This document shows, piece by piece, positions 40,181 through 55,660 of a stretch of 59,739 nt of DNA. Under the pieces are notes generated by a model. It was not told the DNA's origin. It ran no database searches and worked only from the letters and a program-made list of their open reading frames with translations. The position numbers were made by a program, and so were the translations under genes. Each line of letters starts with the position of its first letter. Positions within the stretch are counted from its first letter, which is position 1. The stretch spans positions 1-59,739 of the forward strand of contig DASYYH010000021.1 of NCBI GenBank assembly GCA_035934015.1, in the 5' to 3' direction. This DNA comes from Candidatus Acidiferrales bacterium (GTDB lineage Bacteria; Acidobacteriota; Terriglobia; Acidiferrales; UBA7541).

Positions 40181-42862
40181 TCAGGCAGACATCGGCAAGG
40201 ACTGGCTTTGCGGCGCTGCGCCTGCCATGGACACCAGCAAGCTCCGCAGCCGCGAGCGATCTTCCAAATCCATGCCAACCATTTCGACTCCAGCCTGATT
40301 TGTCTTCGTAAATCTCACGAGAACCTCCAGCCGGATCGGCCGTATTCCCGAGGAGATCTTCAAATCCGCAGCCGTCCCCACGGAAAGGTGGACATCGCCG
40401 CTCAAAAGTCCGCCCTCCAGACTCAACACTTGAACTGCGGGCTGATATTTGCCGCGTTTGGACTGAATGACGGCAGAAACTGGCTTGGTCATGCGAATCC
40501 GAGGATAGCGCCGGTAGCGCACGAAATCGCGGTCTGCTCGCACGTCGAGCGGGGCCAGGCGCAGCATCTCCGCATCAAGCCCGGAACGCGGCAGCACTTC
40601 TTGCGCTTGTTCGGGATCGACCTTCAACAAAGCCTGCGCTGCGGCCAAGCGCATTTCCGGAGGATAAGCCCAGCGCCACGCACTCCGCGTCTCAATGATG
40701 AGCCGCAAATGAGTGGCGCAATCAGGCGGTCGCAATCTTCCGAGCGCCTCGACAGCCTTCACGCGCACGAAGGCCGAGCTATCTGCCAGCAGATCTCCTT
40801 CGGCCAGGCGCAAGAGCTCAGGCGCGACACTGGGATCGCCGGACATGCCCACCTCGTCAAGCGCCATAGGGACAATCATTCGGTCAAACCGATCGATCAA
40901 GCTCATCAGCATTCGCCCGCGTTCCGGCGCGCCGCCCACAGAAAGCTGCCTTAGAGCTTCATCATGCGCAGACCTCTCGCCGGAGCGAATCTTCTTAGGG
41001 AGAAGCTCGTCTACAATCGCAGGCTCCATCCGGCTCAATAGTCCCACGACGCGAACCGCGTTCGCCGCCGGGCTAAACTCCAGTGTCCGCCGCAGATGGT
41101 CTTTCGCGCGTTCGCCTAGCGCGTTCGCCATGCTCACAAGCTGTTCGCGCTCCGCTCCACGCGCTACGCGCATCAGACGCGCTGCCATCTGTTCCACCGC
41201 CGCTTCCGGAGCGCGCCGCAGGACTTCCAGCAGCTCCGCCACGACACCAGAATTTCTCAGTCCATGATCGATGAATTCCGGAATTCGATTCGCGATCCCA
41301 ATCCGCGGCTCGATGCTTTGCGACCAGTTCGGCCGCGATCGTTCGATTTTCGCCAGCGTATCCTGAGCATGGCGCACCGCACCGTACGATTTTCGTTCCG
41401 TCGCTTCCTGGCTGAAGCGTACAAAAGCTGCGCTGAGCAGGCTTTGCAGTTGCGGATCGCGTTCGACTCCCAATTGCTCGCCGATCGACCGAACCGCCTC
41501 ATCCAGACGCGAATCATCCGCCTGCACATAAAGGTCAACCATCTGGCTCAAACCGGTCGCCGCCTTTTTTCGCGCTTCCGGGTCATGGTGCTTCACGCAG
41601 CCCGCGTACTGCGTCAAAATTTTCCCCGTGGTTTCATTGTCTCCGCGGCTCAGCAATTCCTCGCAGTATTGCCGCACATTTCGCGTAGGCACGCACCAGC
41701 TCTCTGGCGAGAGCAGCACACCGCGCTTCCCGGATTCTGGCACCGAGGACCAAAACTGCCGGTCGAGAATATCTGCGTGCGTCTCCACGTTCATTCCGGC
41801 CTTGACCATTTTGTCTTCGTGCCATTGCAGGACCTTCCGCAGCGTCTCGACTTCTTTTCCGAGCTTCTCGAGCACCTGCCGCACTGCGTCTACTTTCAGG
41901 TCGCCGCGCTGAAATCGTTCGATCGCGTAATGGATGGCCATGTCTTCGGCCAGCCGCAACATCGCTGCGTCGTCCAGTTTTTGCCTCGGGTGTTTCGAAC
42001 TCATCCCCGCCAGAGCTTCTCGGAGCGTGATTTGAGCAGGTGCCGGAAGCGCCGCAAACCGCTCTTTCCAGTCTGCTTTTTGCGCTTCTCCGGCCGGCCC
42101 GCGCGACGCGGCATTCAAACTCGTCGCCATGCGCATCAGCGACTTCATCTCATCTTCGGATAACAGGTAAGCGCCCTGTTTTTCTCCGCCGCCGTTCCCC
42201 GTCCCGATCAATTCCTCTCCGAAGACATACCCCGAAGTTTTCGAGATGCCAGAGCCTTCTGCCGCGCTGATGAGTTGAATCAGTTTTTCTGGATCTCTCA
42301 GCCAGTCCTGCAGTTTCTCTGCATCCGCGCCGAGCGATTTCGCTGCAAGCTGCGCTGCAATCGCCGAGTCGGCCATTTCCGAATCGGCGGCCACAAAGCG
42401 AACTTCATTAACGCGGATTCCAGACGCTGGTCCTTCCTCAAAAGAGGCCTTTAAACGCTCAATTAATTCCGCTGGTTTTTGTCCTGCCTCGGCGAATGTG
42501 CGCACAAAAGCCGTAAAAGCGTCCTTGGTCAATTCGTGCGTAAAAACGATACTTGAGATGTTGGCCGTGGTGAGGAGCTGAGCCAAGCTGCGTTCCGATG
42601 CGGTCGATTCCAGCGTCATTCCGTCCACCAGCAGGTCTGTCCCTGATGTGCCCAGAACCAAACCCGACGATCCGGAAGCGTTCAATGCTACGTTTAACTC
42701 CGTCCACGCCCCTTCTAGCTGGCCCGAAGTTCGCGCGTGTTCCAATCCATAGAGCCGGGCGAACTTCAACAACAGGTTCAAACTGCGCACGAAGGCTTTG
42801 GATAATGAGGGCAACGACTCGTTTTTGGATAATGAGGGCAACGACTCGTTTGCGGTCGGCAT
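40181..42862 (-). CDS. Large HEAT-repeat-like protein with C-terminal PilZ domain
   Basis: An 893-residue soluble, helical protein. Residues 1-25 contain ESLPSLSKN duplicated in tandem. The middle (about 380-780) is built of HEAT-like helical repeats (for example DPSVAPELLRLAEGDLLADS, FVRVKAVEALGRLRPPDCAT). The C-terminus from about residue 782 is a PilZ domain: RRYPR (784-788) is intact, but the second motif reads VLSLEG, with valine in place of the usual Asp/Asn, so c-di-GMP binding may be weakened. It is preceded by a dyad-rich 178-base gap and followed by the Lol-like genes. Function unknown. Confidence 0.75.
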   Translation of the reverse strand: MPTANESLPSLSKNESLPSLSKAFVRSLNLLLKFARLYGLEHARTSGQLEGAWTELNVALNASGSSGLVLGTSGTDLLVDGMTLESTASERSLAQLLTTANISSIVFTHELTKDAFTAFVRTFAEAGQKPAELIERLKASFEEGPASGIRVNEVRFVAADSEMADSAIAAQLAAKSLGADAEKLQDWLRDPEKLIQLISAAEGSGISKTSGYVFGEELIGTGNGGGEKQGAYLLSEDEMKSLMRMATSLNAASRGPAGEAQKADWKERFAALPAPAQITLREALAGMSSKHPRQKLDDAAMLRLAEDMAIHYAIERFQRGDLKVDAVRQVLEKLGKEVETLRKVLQWHEDKMVKAGMNVETHADILDRQFWSSVPESGKRGVLLSPESWCVPTRNVRQYCEELLSRGDNETTGKILTQYAGCVKHHDPEARKKAATGLSQMVDLYVQADDSRLDEAVRSIGEQLGVERDPQLQSLLSAAFVRFSQEATERKSYGAVRHAQDTLAKIERSRPNWSQSIEPRIGIANRIPEFIDHGLRNSGVVAELLEVLRRAPEAAVEQMAARLMRVARGAEREQLVSMANALGERAKDHLRRTLEFSPAANAVRVVGLLSRMEPAIVDELLPKKIRSGERSAHDEALRQLSVGGAPERGRMLMSLIDRFDRMIVPMALDEVGMSGDPSVAPELLRLAEGDLLADSSAFVRVKAVEALGRLRPPDCATHLRLIIETRSAWRWAYPPEMRLAAAQALLKVDPEQAQEVLPRSGLDAEMLRLAPLDVRADRDFVRYRRYPRIRMTKPVSAVIQSKRGKYQPAVQVLSLEGGLLSGDVHLSVGTAADLKISSGIRPIRLEVLVRFTKTNQAGVEMVGMDLEDRSRLRSLLVSMAGAAPQSQSLPMSA
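42798..42851. repeat. Perfect 27-base tandem duplication inside the HEAT-PilZ gene
   Basis: Bases 42798-42824 are repeated without a mismatch at 42825-42851. It adds nine residues (a second copy of ESLPSLSKN) near the N-terminus. Perfect identity indicates a recent slippage or unequal-recombination event. Confidence 0.95.
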
Positions 42863-54265: not shown

Positions 54266-54673
54266 TTAATTCTCGCCCATCTGCTGCGCCAGCAGGTCTC
54301 GGCTGTTGGCGATCCGTCGGTCCAGAGCCACCGCTGCAAAATATGCGCAAGCGCTTCGCTCACTCTCCGCCCAGGCCGAAATTCGCGAAGAAAACGCCCG
54401 GCCCACTGAACGCAGGACGCCCATCAGGCGATAATAGACTCCTACCACCCTCAGATCGGTCTGATCGTCGCTCTTTTGCGGGCACAAACGAACCAATTGC
54501 ACCAGCCGCCCGAATTGCTCGCTGCTGACTTGCTGACCCTCGATGCCCGCGACTTCACGCACTTGTTCCGAAAGCTCCGACTTCCGGTAGACGGCGATCA
54601 CCGCGCGCGAATGAGCCATAAAGAATTGCAGGAGCGCTGCAATGGAGGCCACGCAGATAAGGGCAGCAATCAT
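54266..54673 (-). CDS. Small membrane-anchored protein, unknown
   Basis: A 135-residue protein with one N-terminal membrane helix (MIAALICVASIAALLQFFMA) and a charged helical remainder. Its start overlaps the stop of the upstream seven-helix protein gene by four bases (ATGA), so the two are co-translated. No family is recognised; the frame extends upstream but the extra part has no membrane or domain character and would duplicate the neighbouring gene. Confidence 0.7.
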   Translation of the reverse strand: MIAALICVASIAALLQFFMAHSRAVIAVYRKSELSEQVREVAGIEGQQVSSEQFGRLVQLVRLCPQKSDDQTDLRVVGVYYRLMGVLRSVGRAFSSRISAWAESERSACAYFAAVALDRRIANSRDLLAQQMGEN

Positions 54674-55389
54674 GAGTGCTGTTGAACCGGAACGCCCGAA
54701 GCCACAACGCGCGCCGTTTCCAGTTTCGCCCTTTCCGGAACTCGTGTAAACGTATAGGCCCATGCCAGCGGCAGGAATGCTCCCATCACCGGCGGAATGA
54801 ATCGCAGGAAGTTTGCTTGGAGGCCGGGGAAAAGATTTCGCATCGCATAGGCCGCAGCGTTCGCGCTGAAATATATACCCAGCGCCAGCACCAGCTGGAC
54901 AAGCCTCGCGCGCGTCTCCTTCAATTTCACGATCGCGCCCCAAAGCAAATAGGTCAGTACGACCCCCACGAAATAAAGATTCTGCCCCAGCTCGACCACG
55001 AACCGGCTGGTCAGGTGATCCTTATTCTGGTGGATGACTACGTAGGAAAATAGCGCCGTCGCCGTCAGCAGCATCGCCGACGCGCCCTGCACATACTTTC
55101 CTACATGCATTTCGCGGAACATTTCCTTGTAAAAACGCATGATGACAAAGTACAGCAAGATGATCAGCAAGCTGTCTGTGTAGTAGTACGTGTAGCGGTA
55201 TTGCAGCGACGCCGCTCCGTAATGCCTGACCAGCGGATAGAGGACGGCGCTCTGCAGCGCGACGGCCATGATATAGACATTAAGGGAAATATTGCGAAGG
55301 AATTGTTTACGGCTGAGAGCCCAAACCACCACGTAGAGTTCCGCTAGGAAACTCGTAATCCATATAACGTAATCAAAAGGGCCAAGCAT
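54670..55389 (-). CDS. Seven-helix membrane protein, unknown
   Basis: A 239-residue integral membrane protein with seven predicted helices (for example FDYVIWITSFLAELYVVVWA, SLLIILLYFVIMRFY, AMLLTATALFSYVVIH) and few charged residues within them. No enzymatic motif is seen and no family is recognised. It follows the secreted repeat peptide by 46 bases and is coupled to the small membrane protein after it. Confidence 0.72.
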   Translation of the reverse strand: MLGPFDYVIWITSFLAELYVVVWALSRKQFLRNISLNVYIMAVALQSAVLYPLVRHYGAASLQYRYTYYYTDSLLIILLYFVIMRFYKEMFREMHVGKYVQGASAMLLTATALFSYVVIHQNKDHLTSRFVVELGQNLYFVGVVLTYLLWGAIVKLKETRARLVQLVLALGIYFSANAAAYAMRNLFPGLQANFLRFIPPVMGAFLPLAWAYTFTRVPERAKLETARVVASGVPVQQHS

Positions 55390-55435
55390 TCACTTCGTAT
55401 CGCGAGGCTAGGCCCAGCTGCCGCTTACGCCCTGT

Positions 55436-55660
55436 TTAGTTCCAGGGTGTAATAGGCATCGGAGCGCCGCCGCCCTTGGCATTCGTCCAAGGCGTAATCG
55501 GCATTGGTGCGCCGCCGCCCTTCGCGTTTGTCCAAGGTGTGATCGGCATCGGTGCGCCGCCGCCGGCAACCATCTGCGCATTCGCCGTCAGGCTGCGCAG
55601 TCCGACTGCGCTTACCAGGGCCAACAGCACTAACACACCCACCATCAACCACTTGCTCAT
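55436..55660 (-). CDS. Secreted repeat peptide (GGGAPMPITPWTNAK)
   Basis: A 74-residue protein: an N-terminal signal peptide (MSKWLMVGVLVLLALVSAVG, cleavage likely near ANAQ) followed almost immediately by a 42-residue mature part consisting of two complete copies of GGGAPMPITPWTNAK (residues 33-47, 48-62) and a third copy cut after PITPW, ending Asn (63-74). There are no cysteines. The three DNA copies differ only at synonymous positions, so the peptide repeat is under selection. No family is recognised. A G-rich stretch just before the ATG may be the ribosome-binding site. It heads a run with two membrane protein genes. Confidence 0.8.
   Translation of the reverse strand: MSKWLMVGVLVLLALVSAVGLRSLTANAQMVAGGGAPMPITPWTNAKGGGAPMPITPWTNAKGGGAPMPITPWN
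55439..55564 (-). repeat. 45-base tandem repeat units of the secreted peptide gene
   Basis: Two full 45-base units (55564-55520, 55519-55475) and a 36-base third (55474-55439). Unit 1 and unit 2 differ at six bases, all synonymous third positions (CCG/CCA, ATC/ATT, ACA/ACG twice, AAC/AAT, GCG/GCC). Confidence 0.9.

Follow-up and report, generated by a model that had tools for sequence, protein, structure and literature searches.

The yeast alpha-factor precursor is a secreted protein in which identical copies of one peptide are arranged in tandem and separated by spacers. In the Gram-positive quorum systems Agr, ComX, PapR and Phr, a small secreted peptide is encoded together with a membrane or cytosolic sensor, and specificity varies between relatives. 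Bacterial sensor domains with seven helices include HisKA_7TM, 7TMR-DISM and the rhodopsins. Small secreted peptides beside membrane proteins are also typical of bacteriocins, which show a patchy distribution and in which toxin and immunity proteins coevolve. PMC12992588 reports small secretory proteins that carry a RAPP motif close to the C-terminus and are encoded upstream of genes with diverse function.

Here we analyzed a locus in a 59,739-nt stretch of DNA from a Candidatus Acidiferrales bacterium (hereafter the window), in which a gene for a small repeat peptide precedes two genes for predicted membrane proteins, MP1 and MP2. The order of the three genes is conserved, the repeated cores are identical within genes and change between lineages, the core covaries with MP1 and not with MP2, and paralogous sets of these genes occur.

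The repeat-peptide gene and its neighbors

The following features were assigned to the locus:

55436..55660, minus strand: repeat-peptide gene, 74 aa, stop included (from the sequence and family homologues)
55577..55660, minus strand: signal-like N-terminal hydrophobic targeting segment, residues 1-28 (from hydrophobicity only)
55520..55564, minus strand: unit 1, GGGAPMPITPWTNAK, core GGGAPMPITPW
55475..55519, minus strand: unit 2, GGGAPMPITPWTNAK, core GGGAPMPITPW
55439..55474, minus strand: unit 3, GGGAPMPITPWN, full core but shortened linker
55414..55462, minus strand: predicted RNA hairpin formed by the last peptide codons and the gap before MP1 (junction 55381-55465)
54670..55389, minus strand: MP1, 239-aa predicted seven-helix membrane protein
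54266..54673, minus strand: MP2, 135 aa, N-terminal hydrophobic helix and helical domain

Read from the minus-strand ORF, the peptide is composed of MSKWLMVGVLVLLALVSAVGLRSLTANAQMVA, two copies of GGGAPMPITPWTNAK and a final GGGAPMPITPWN; its hydrophobic N-terminus is MSKWLMVGVLVLLALVSAVGLRSLTANAQ, and a GGGGGG stretch upstream of the ATG ends 5 nt away from it. The initial annotation had described, without naming a strand, a secreted peptide with nearly three copies of the unit. This agrees with the core GGGAPMPITPW being present three times and with the array delimited by TRF (55441-55564, period 45, 2.8 copies, score 185), which has the top score among the eight TRF rows of the window. Its further statement that only the repeat is left after the signal peptide is nearly accurate, except that a few residues (approximately QMVA) sit between the signal-like segment and unit 1. 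The differences between units 1 and 2, held to be all synonymous, are indeed of this kind: when each unit was compared with the next, we counted 11 synonymous and 0 nonsynonymous differences in 26 codon pairs. Elsewhere in the window (42797-42851), TRF reported a 27-bp unit that is duplicated in tandem without mismatch (2.0 copies, 100%).

The signal-like segment is kept across an alignment of 12 sequences, and a crude [AVST]xA site is found at residues 16-39 in 89 of 108 members of the peptide family. As a chance control we used 4390 other ORFs of 40-140 aa, taken from both strands of 61 loci including the window. A hydrophobic N-terminus was seen in 137 of them and an identical run of at least six residues at a fixed offset in 33, and the two features were combined in 2. 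Searches with the repeat peptide as a query returned no match besides itself in its own genome (E ≤ 0.001), nothing usable in plasmids (tblastn) and no match in a first scan of genome contigs. Neither the peptide nor MP1 or MP2 scored above the Pfam cut-off or the PHROGs threshold, matched NCBIfam or gave a PADLOC match at E ≤ 0.1. An assembly artefact was ruled out, since arrays recur across many genomes, with nine copies, for example, on a 5.36-Mb contig (L343).

To describe the neighborhood of the 61 peptide loci, we clustered ORFs of at least 80 aa located up to 6 kb away, which is a survey and not a full annotation. The only real genes common to more than half of the loci were MP1, found directly downstream of the peptide in 58, and MP2, which comes next in 56; the initial annotation had likewise noted that the two downstream genes encode membrane proteins. 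The three loci without MP1 (L069, L094, L109) are on contigs ending in or just past the peptide gene. The order of repeat peptide, MP1 and MP2, with the peptide first, is conserved. MP1 starts 46 nt past the peptide stop in the window and 30-91 nt past it in 52 loci, and the MP2 start overlaps the MP1 stop as ATGA in all 52 loci from which both genes were extracted. Two further large ORF clusters (40 and 39 loci) run on the opposite strand across the same genes. Lineage-specific neighbors are a protein with CxxC pairs, which we take to be zinc-ribbon-like (28 loci), FtsH (21 loci) and a ThyX-like protein (5 loci). Linkage to the ThyX-like gene upstream in the window was ruled out, as it clusters in just these 5 of 61 loci. 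No kinase, cyclase or other regulator was recognized among the genes common to most of the 61 loci. At one locus (G016, L093 5900-7150), approximately 0.9 kb separates the peptide from MP1, and a decayed-looking repeat copy adjoins MP1.

The reverse census started from MP1. Profile A2, built from 49 MP1 sequences, matched 92 of 250 genomes of the class Terriglobia; 82 of the 101 listed A2 places were examined and 78 were usable. An upstream peptide was scored when an ORF of 28-220 aa contained a hydrophobic segment and either at least 12% proline past residue 25 or a repeat. By this rule a peptide was present upstream of MP1 in 70 of the 78 places, in eight families, with tandem copies in 55, and in 28 of the 29 usable places outside the window's family. 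Repeat fragments were visible at all four places without upstream sequence (L137/G030, L142/G005, L150, L164). Eight places lacked a peptide by the rule. L145 is the G016 case mentioned above, with MP1 separated from the peptide, and L182 has a visible array broken by masked bases. The other six (L169, L170, L172, L174, L175, L184) were counted as absences; L184 has upstream a 30-aa proline-containing ORF without a hydrophobic segment. L169 and L170, both from genus g2, are MP1-like paralogues that lack a peptide upstream; the end of L169 is overlapped by an MP2-like gene, and the two are perhaps orphan receptors. Among the 56 listed genomes of the window's family, 44 had a strong MP1 match (E ≤ 1e-48) and all 44 a peptide match; ten of the other 12 had no peptide match and two a weak one (G099, E 2.1e-4; G007, E 0.0096). 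The closest named relative of the window's MP1, with 96% identity, is encoded on a Candidatus Acidiferrales MAG contig of the class Terriglobia (L189).

In the AlphaFold2 model (pLDDT 88.1, pTM 0.82) MP1 has seven long helices. Mean numbers of K+R were 2.5, 1.4, 3.7 and 2.7 for the predicted inner loops and C-terminus and 0.0, 0.3, 1.2 and 0.6 for the predicted outside, hence the N-terminus is predicted to be outside and the C-terminus inside. Foldseek gave nothing at E ≤ 0.001 (best E 0.021); the 50 rows listed consisted entirely of GPCRs, rhodopsins and LYCHOS, a protein with a GPCR domain (TM 0.35-0.58), and the alpha-factor receptor Ste2 (7ad3) ranked sixth with E 0.049. With VIA, the best Z was 14.2 and that of rank 50 still 12.4, where helical models typically reach a best Z of 14 and a rank-50 value of 6 (up to 13). 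We read the model as a predicted bundle of seven helices whose arrangement is closest, at weak E-values, to that of GPCRs or rhodopsins, and do not conclude homology to these proteins. The Pfam scan of MP1 gave one chance-level match (E 8.7) to a family other than that of Ste2, and no match above cut-off was obtained when MP1 and six distant relatives were scanned. At E ≤ 1, profile A2 had no match among the sequences of solved structures. In 15 longer MP1-like ORFs, C-terminal extensions did not exceed 74 aa. The MP2 model (pLDDT 78.5) consists of one N-terminal helix and a helical domain, and its fold search gave no useful match (best E 0.51).

The peptide family and its varied cores

Profile A1, built from 12 peptide sequences with that of the window among them, detected homologues (E ≤ 0.01) in 68 of the 89 genomes that belong to the window's family. 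We read out 60 loci, i.e., 59 places from these same-family matches and one from G037 of the same order, which together with the window make up the 61 loci. Their peptides share a conserved N-terminal segment, and the repeated part is not conserved. Units within the family include NGGAPAPPVPWK (three copies), NGSGPPPPPPWQ, ANTSGPVPPSPWVI, ASTGNPVPILPDGK, WGGAPLPPTPWK, MANGGGPVPPPPP (four copies) and HGGAPIPPIPF (three copies). Some genes are single-copy, such as that of G066, which ends in MANGGAPAPPTPWK, and the number of core copies across the family ranges from 1 to 9. The initial annotation had proposed to look for variable copy numbers in relatives; they were found, with the units intact, so that the absence and decay it had named as counter-evidence do not apply. 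Several contigs start or end in the repeat array or within about 30 nt of it (G004:C220, G005:C71, G005:C81, G030:C127, G061:C157, G077:C384, G094:C140 and G111:C1), and for this reason true copy numbers may exceed the assembled ones.

Between families the units are wholly unlike, as seen for NGGAPAPPVPWK, IGPSPAPIPPR, AAGPWPFPDDSA and SPATPRPLPPPAVA (nine copies). Those found outside the window's family, namely IGPSPAPIPPR, IGADPVPLPP, IGGEPVPIPH, DGTTTAPEMR, AAGPWPFPDDSAGGNI, HGLTPPPKDYD and HGPVAPPDGDGDGGNI, have little in common except proline and glycine. Linkers vary in 33 of the 54 genes with at least three exact cores; in the remaining 21 they agree, or the core takes up the whole period. 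With linkers that vary beside fixed cores, it is the core that is likely to be active. The tail past the last exact core comprises 0 to 29 residues.

Motifs were counted in 108 unique peptides, a set that does not include L172, L271 and L277, which have no proline-rich part, or the peptides of family f11. A dibasic K/R pair beyond residue 24 was present in 7 of the 108 and Cys in the mature part in 6; the mean net charge past residue 24 was near neutral (+0.5). PP was absent from 21, and RAPP, RGPP, RAGP and RxPP were found in none. The layout of the peptide, in which a conserved N-terminal part precedes repeated cores and the linkers vary, resembles the multi-core precursors of RiPPs, for which MP1 and MP2 would be the modifying or maturing enzymes. 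Yet no enzyme family was recognized in either protein by Pfam or NCBIfam, the cores are preceded by a hydrophobic targeting segment rather than a soluble leader, and Cys is confined to the few mature parts counted above; we regard such a function as the least probable of those considered, with very little chance of being correct.

A second type of MP1 (type B), represented by the seven sequences of profile A4, matched 161 of the 250 genomes of the class, often several times in one genome. The type-B census covered 25 places, i.e., 24 of 30 A4 loci and L302, and omitted L254-L259, which are already among the A2 matches. A peptide was found at 18 of the 25 places, at 15 of them in tandem copies. 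L264 was scored as peptide-less, yet holds five copies of NMPVFPTPPA beside masked bases, and L266 is the same place as L175 of the A2 census, with the peptide absent in both. The genome of the window carries three peptide-MP1 gene sets with three different cores: besides the set described above, L257 (G000:C26) has a single-copy ADGSAPVPPTG peptide and L302 (G000:C16) an array of ADGG-type units, of which three are exact and a fourth is not. Family f11 includes single-contig assemblies; here, arrays of nine copies occur in L343 (SPATPRPLPPPAVA) and L346 (GPMLPTPTPPGG) and of eight in L347, and other members have short unrepeated peptides. At six f11 places (L338, L341, L288, L300, L295, L333) short peptides with two cysteines (e.g., CDPADPKCPP) are found upstream of MP1-like genes, where they stand in place of the repeat peptide. 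Phylum-wide, profile A5 matched 14 of 297 genomes; the matches in the 7 outside the class were weak (best E 9.6e-10), and at the places scanned there no repeat peptide was found upstream of the MP1-like matches.

Selection on the units and covariation with MP1

For the analysis of selection, each unit was compared with the next one, the aligned segment being chosen by identity of the DNA and not of the protein. A usable repeat was available in 75 of 114 unique sequences. Between adjacent units of these 75 genes we counted 575.4 synonymous vs. 83.6 nonsynonymous differences (pS 0.403, pN 0.022, pN/pS 0.055); synonymous differences were in excess in 70 genes and nonsynonymous ones in 2, with ties in 3. 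This ratio strongly supports the proposal of the initial annotation that selection acts on the peptide and not on the DNA. An origin by recent DNA slippage alone was rejected, because pS reaches 0.40 in the 75 genes while the protein hardly changed.

We further compared units within and between 18 same-family genes that share one 11-aa pattern, where the pairs are not independent. Results showed pS 0.646 and pN 0.003 within genes and pS 0.676 and pN 0.205 between them. In these genes, copies within a gene are thus about as distant synonymously as those of different species, but almost the same as protein. Either the copies are of old age and have been held identical, or their codons were selected to diverge, in which case the divergence perhaps stabilizes the array. 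Both origins suggest that a partner requires a single sequence in each species. Whatever their function, the arrays offer a natural experiment of unusual clarity, with copies that are synonymously distant, almost uniform as protein and switched as a set from one lineage to another.

Distances between units correlated with distances between MP1 sequences across 47 same-family loci (r 0.50). The correlation held when MP2 distance was controlled for (partial r 0.38, p 0.001), and that of the unit with MP2 given MP1 was -0.06; in this test three cores were shortened by the pattern, and full-length cores were used in the TilS test. As MP2 is short, TilS was added as an independent marker. Of 33 genomes searched for it, 32 gave a match and 28 entered the test; L331 and L332 (short TilS matches) and G097 and G072 (no locus) were left out. 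Given TilS, the unit still varied with MP1 (partial r 0.39, p 0.001; distance-based, 28 genomes of one family), in contrast to MP2 (-0.008, p 0.52) and to the signal sequence of the peptide itself (-0.058, p 0.70). The unit-TilS value given MP1 was -0.098 in the same genomes. These sequence comparisons point to core and MP1 being in contact or co-adapted. The MP1 positions that covary with the unit were not enriched on the outer side (mean depth 0.52 for the top 24 vs. 0.53 for the rest, p 0.43).

The covariation fits any direct contact between the two proteins, and thus also an uncut polyvalent peptide that remains in the periplasm as a partner of an MP1-MP2 complex, as a ligand or as a scaffold clustering the membrane protein, with no signal released. 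The lack of an obvious cleavage site, dibasic pairs past residue 24 being confined to 7 of 108 peptides, is in line with this, and a range of 1 to 9 copies would suit avidity. Single-copy genes, however, keep adjoining MP1 (L122, L147, L152), so polyvalency is not essential, and we consider this explanation unlikely on the whole. Coevolution is also what a bacteriocin-like toxin with MP1 and MP2 as its immunity proteins would produce, and small secreted peptides beside membrane proteins would fit. Against this, the peptide is widely kept (68 of 89 family genomes), the same FtsH gene lies downstream in 21 of 61 loci, the peptides carry hardly any net charge past residue 24 (mean +0.5) and no match to the PADLOC defence models was obtained, which makes a toxin highly improbable.

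The junction between the peptide and MP1 genes was also folded. The window hairpin had a z-score of -3.40 against 200 shuffles, and the 13 junctions folded ranged from -3.40 to +0.97. The possible stem is formed between CCAGGG, located shortly before MP1, and the last codons of the peptide gene, which often read CCC TGG (Pro-Trp). For 26 genes of genus g5, pairing with the cognate gap was stronger than with non-cognate gaps (-17.4 vs. -15.5 kcal/mol, p 0.0002), and CCTTGG is matched by CCAAGG in G065 and G083 as an apparent compensation. For 25 genes outside g5, the window included, the difference was not significant (-16.0 vs. -15.3 kcal/mol, p 0.098). The stem suggests translational coupling. 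It could also belong to a regulatory leader, in which ribosomes slowed on the proline-rich end of the peptide ORF melt the RNA stem and so set the translation of MP1 and MP2. The small size, hydrophobic N-terminus, proline-rich C-terminal part and position directly upstream are shared with the arrest peptides described in PMC10987492 and PMC12992588, and the cognate preference in g5 is as a leader would have it. Yet one arrest motif suffices for such a role, which leaves up to nine protein-identical copies unexplained, and it does not need covariation of the unit with the MP1 sequence. None of the 108 peptides has RAPP, RGPP, RAGP or RxPP and 21 have no PP, though other arrest motifs are possible; the tail after the last exact core varies from 0 to 29 residues, and the stem, not significant outside g5, may merely couple translation. 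We therefore hold a leader to be rather improbable.

A proposed peptide-receptor pair and known systems

The initial annotation had offered a surface peptide, a signal or a substrate of a sorting or cleavage enzyme as possible functions. A signal fits best, as the unit covaries with the neighboring seven-helix protein; the substrate guess fared less well, with no sorting or cleavage enzyme recognized among the neighbors by Pfam or NCBIfam and dibasic sites in 7 of 108 peptides. In our best reading, to which we give an even chance of being right, the multi-copy peptide would be secreted and MP1 would be the seven-helix receptor that senses it. For it speak the linkage of the peptide to MP1, the selection on the core, the covariation of the unit with MP1 but not MP2, the seven-helix model with its predicted outer N-terminus, and the three gene sets with different cores in one genome. 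Against it speak the weak fold match, the covarying MP1 positions that are not enriched on the outer side, the lack of a recognized regulator among the genes common to most loci, the lack of a recognized fold for MP2, the six MP1-like genes without a peptide by our rule, and a distance-based partial r of only 0.39 in one family. In this reading the gene would encode a multi-copy precursor of a short proline-rich peptide with the core GGGAPMPITPW, which would be periplasmic or released. After export, the cores, cut or uncut, would be recognized from outside by MP1 as the cognate membrane receptor, and MP2, as a putative membrane-tethered cytoplasmic subunit, would relay the signal inward. A cell or its kin would thereby sense its own peptide, and multiple copies may raise the dose or avidity of the ligand; the single-copy versions indicate that the multi-copy form is not essential. 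Co-transcription, export by Sec, binding to MP1, an output through MP2 and the choice between cut units and a polyvalent chain are what we infer here.

A wider proposal, put forward tentatively and with somewhat less confidence than an even chance would warrant, is that Terriglobia possess a family of orthogonal peptide-receptor channels, several per genome and each with its own seven-helix receptor, as a counterpart of alpha-factor/Ste2. Coevolution with the receptor would hold the copies identical, with codons free or even selected to diverge, by which the array would stay stable. If the receptor reading is true, it would mean peptide sensing in common, little understood soil bacteria, and bacterial coevolution of a ligand with a seven-helix receptor, with natural orthogonal channels in one genome. 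The system itself is made up of three protein families without a database name. Within the open-licence literature, most subscription papers being outside the scope of the search, we found no description of a peptide-MP1-MP2 system.

Among seven-helix bacterial sensors, HisKA_7TM, 7TMR-DISM and the rhodopsins share with MP1 the seven helices and, for MP1 by prediction, an N-terminus that is outside; MP1 differs in having no Pfam match above cut-off and, across the 15 longer ORFs, no C-terminal extension of more than 74 aa. Like Agr, ComX, PapR and Phr, the locus encodes a small peptide, here of predicted secretion, beside a candidate sensor. In contrast to those systems, neither MP1 nor MP2 was recognized by Pfam or NCBIfam as a processing enzyme, a histidine kinase or an RRNPP regulator, the peptide is present in tandem copies, and the host belongs to the Acidobacteriota. 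With the secretory arrest peptides SecM, MifM, VemP, ApdA/ApdP and the RAPP class, the repeat peptide shares its small size, an N-terminal targeting segment, proline towards the C-terminus, a place directly upstream of membrane-protein genes and a possible RNA stem at the junction. It differs from them in its many identical copies, in the lack of a RAPP-like motif in 108 peptides, in a core that covaries with MP1, and in that MP1 and MP2 have no Sec or YidC match (Pfam, NCBIfam).

The yeast alpha-factor and Ste2 may serve as the nearest working analogy. In both cases a targeting sequence is followed by tandem identical cores and spacers (some bacterial members have one core), a seven-helix protein is the partner, as proposed here for MP1, and the core changes along with the seven-helix protein from one species to the next. 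The present system is bacterial, and its ligand and seven-helix genes are neighbors in one gene set. Kex2-type dibasic sites are found in just 7 of 108 bacterial peptides, and MP1 has no sequence relation to Ste2 that we could find, its Foldseek match to the latter having E 0.049, nor a known G protein. Since dibasic sites are rare and no sequence homology was found, we do not count the bacterial system as a member of the alpha-factor/Ste2 family. By the tests run, no component falls into a named family. The system looks like a private peptide-receptor pair of a kind not described in bacteria, and if the receptor reading holds, its mechanism would follow a known principle in a bacterial form that is new.
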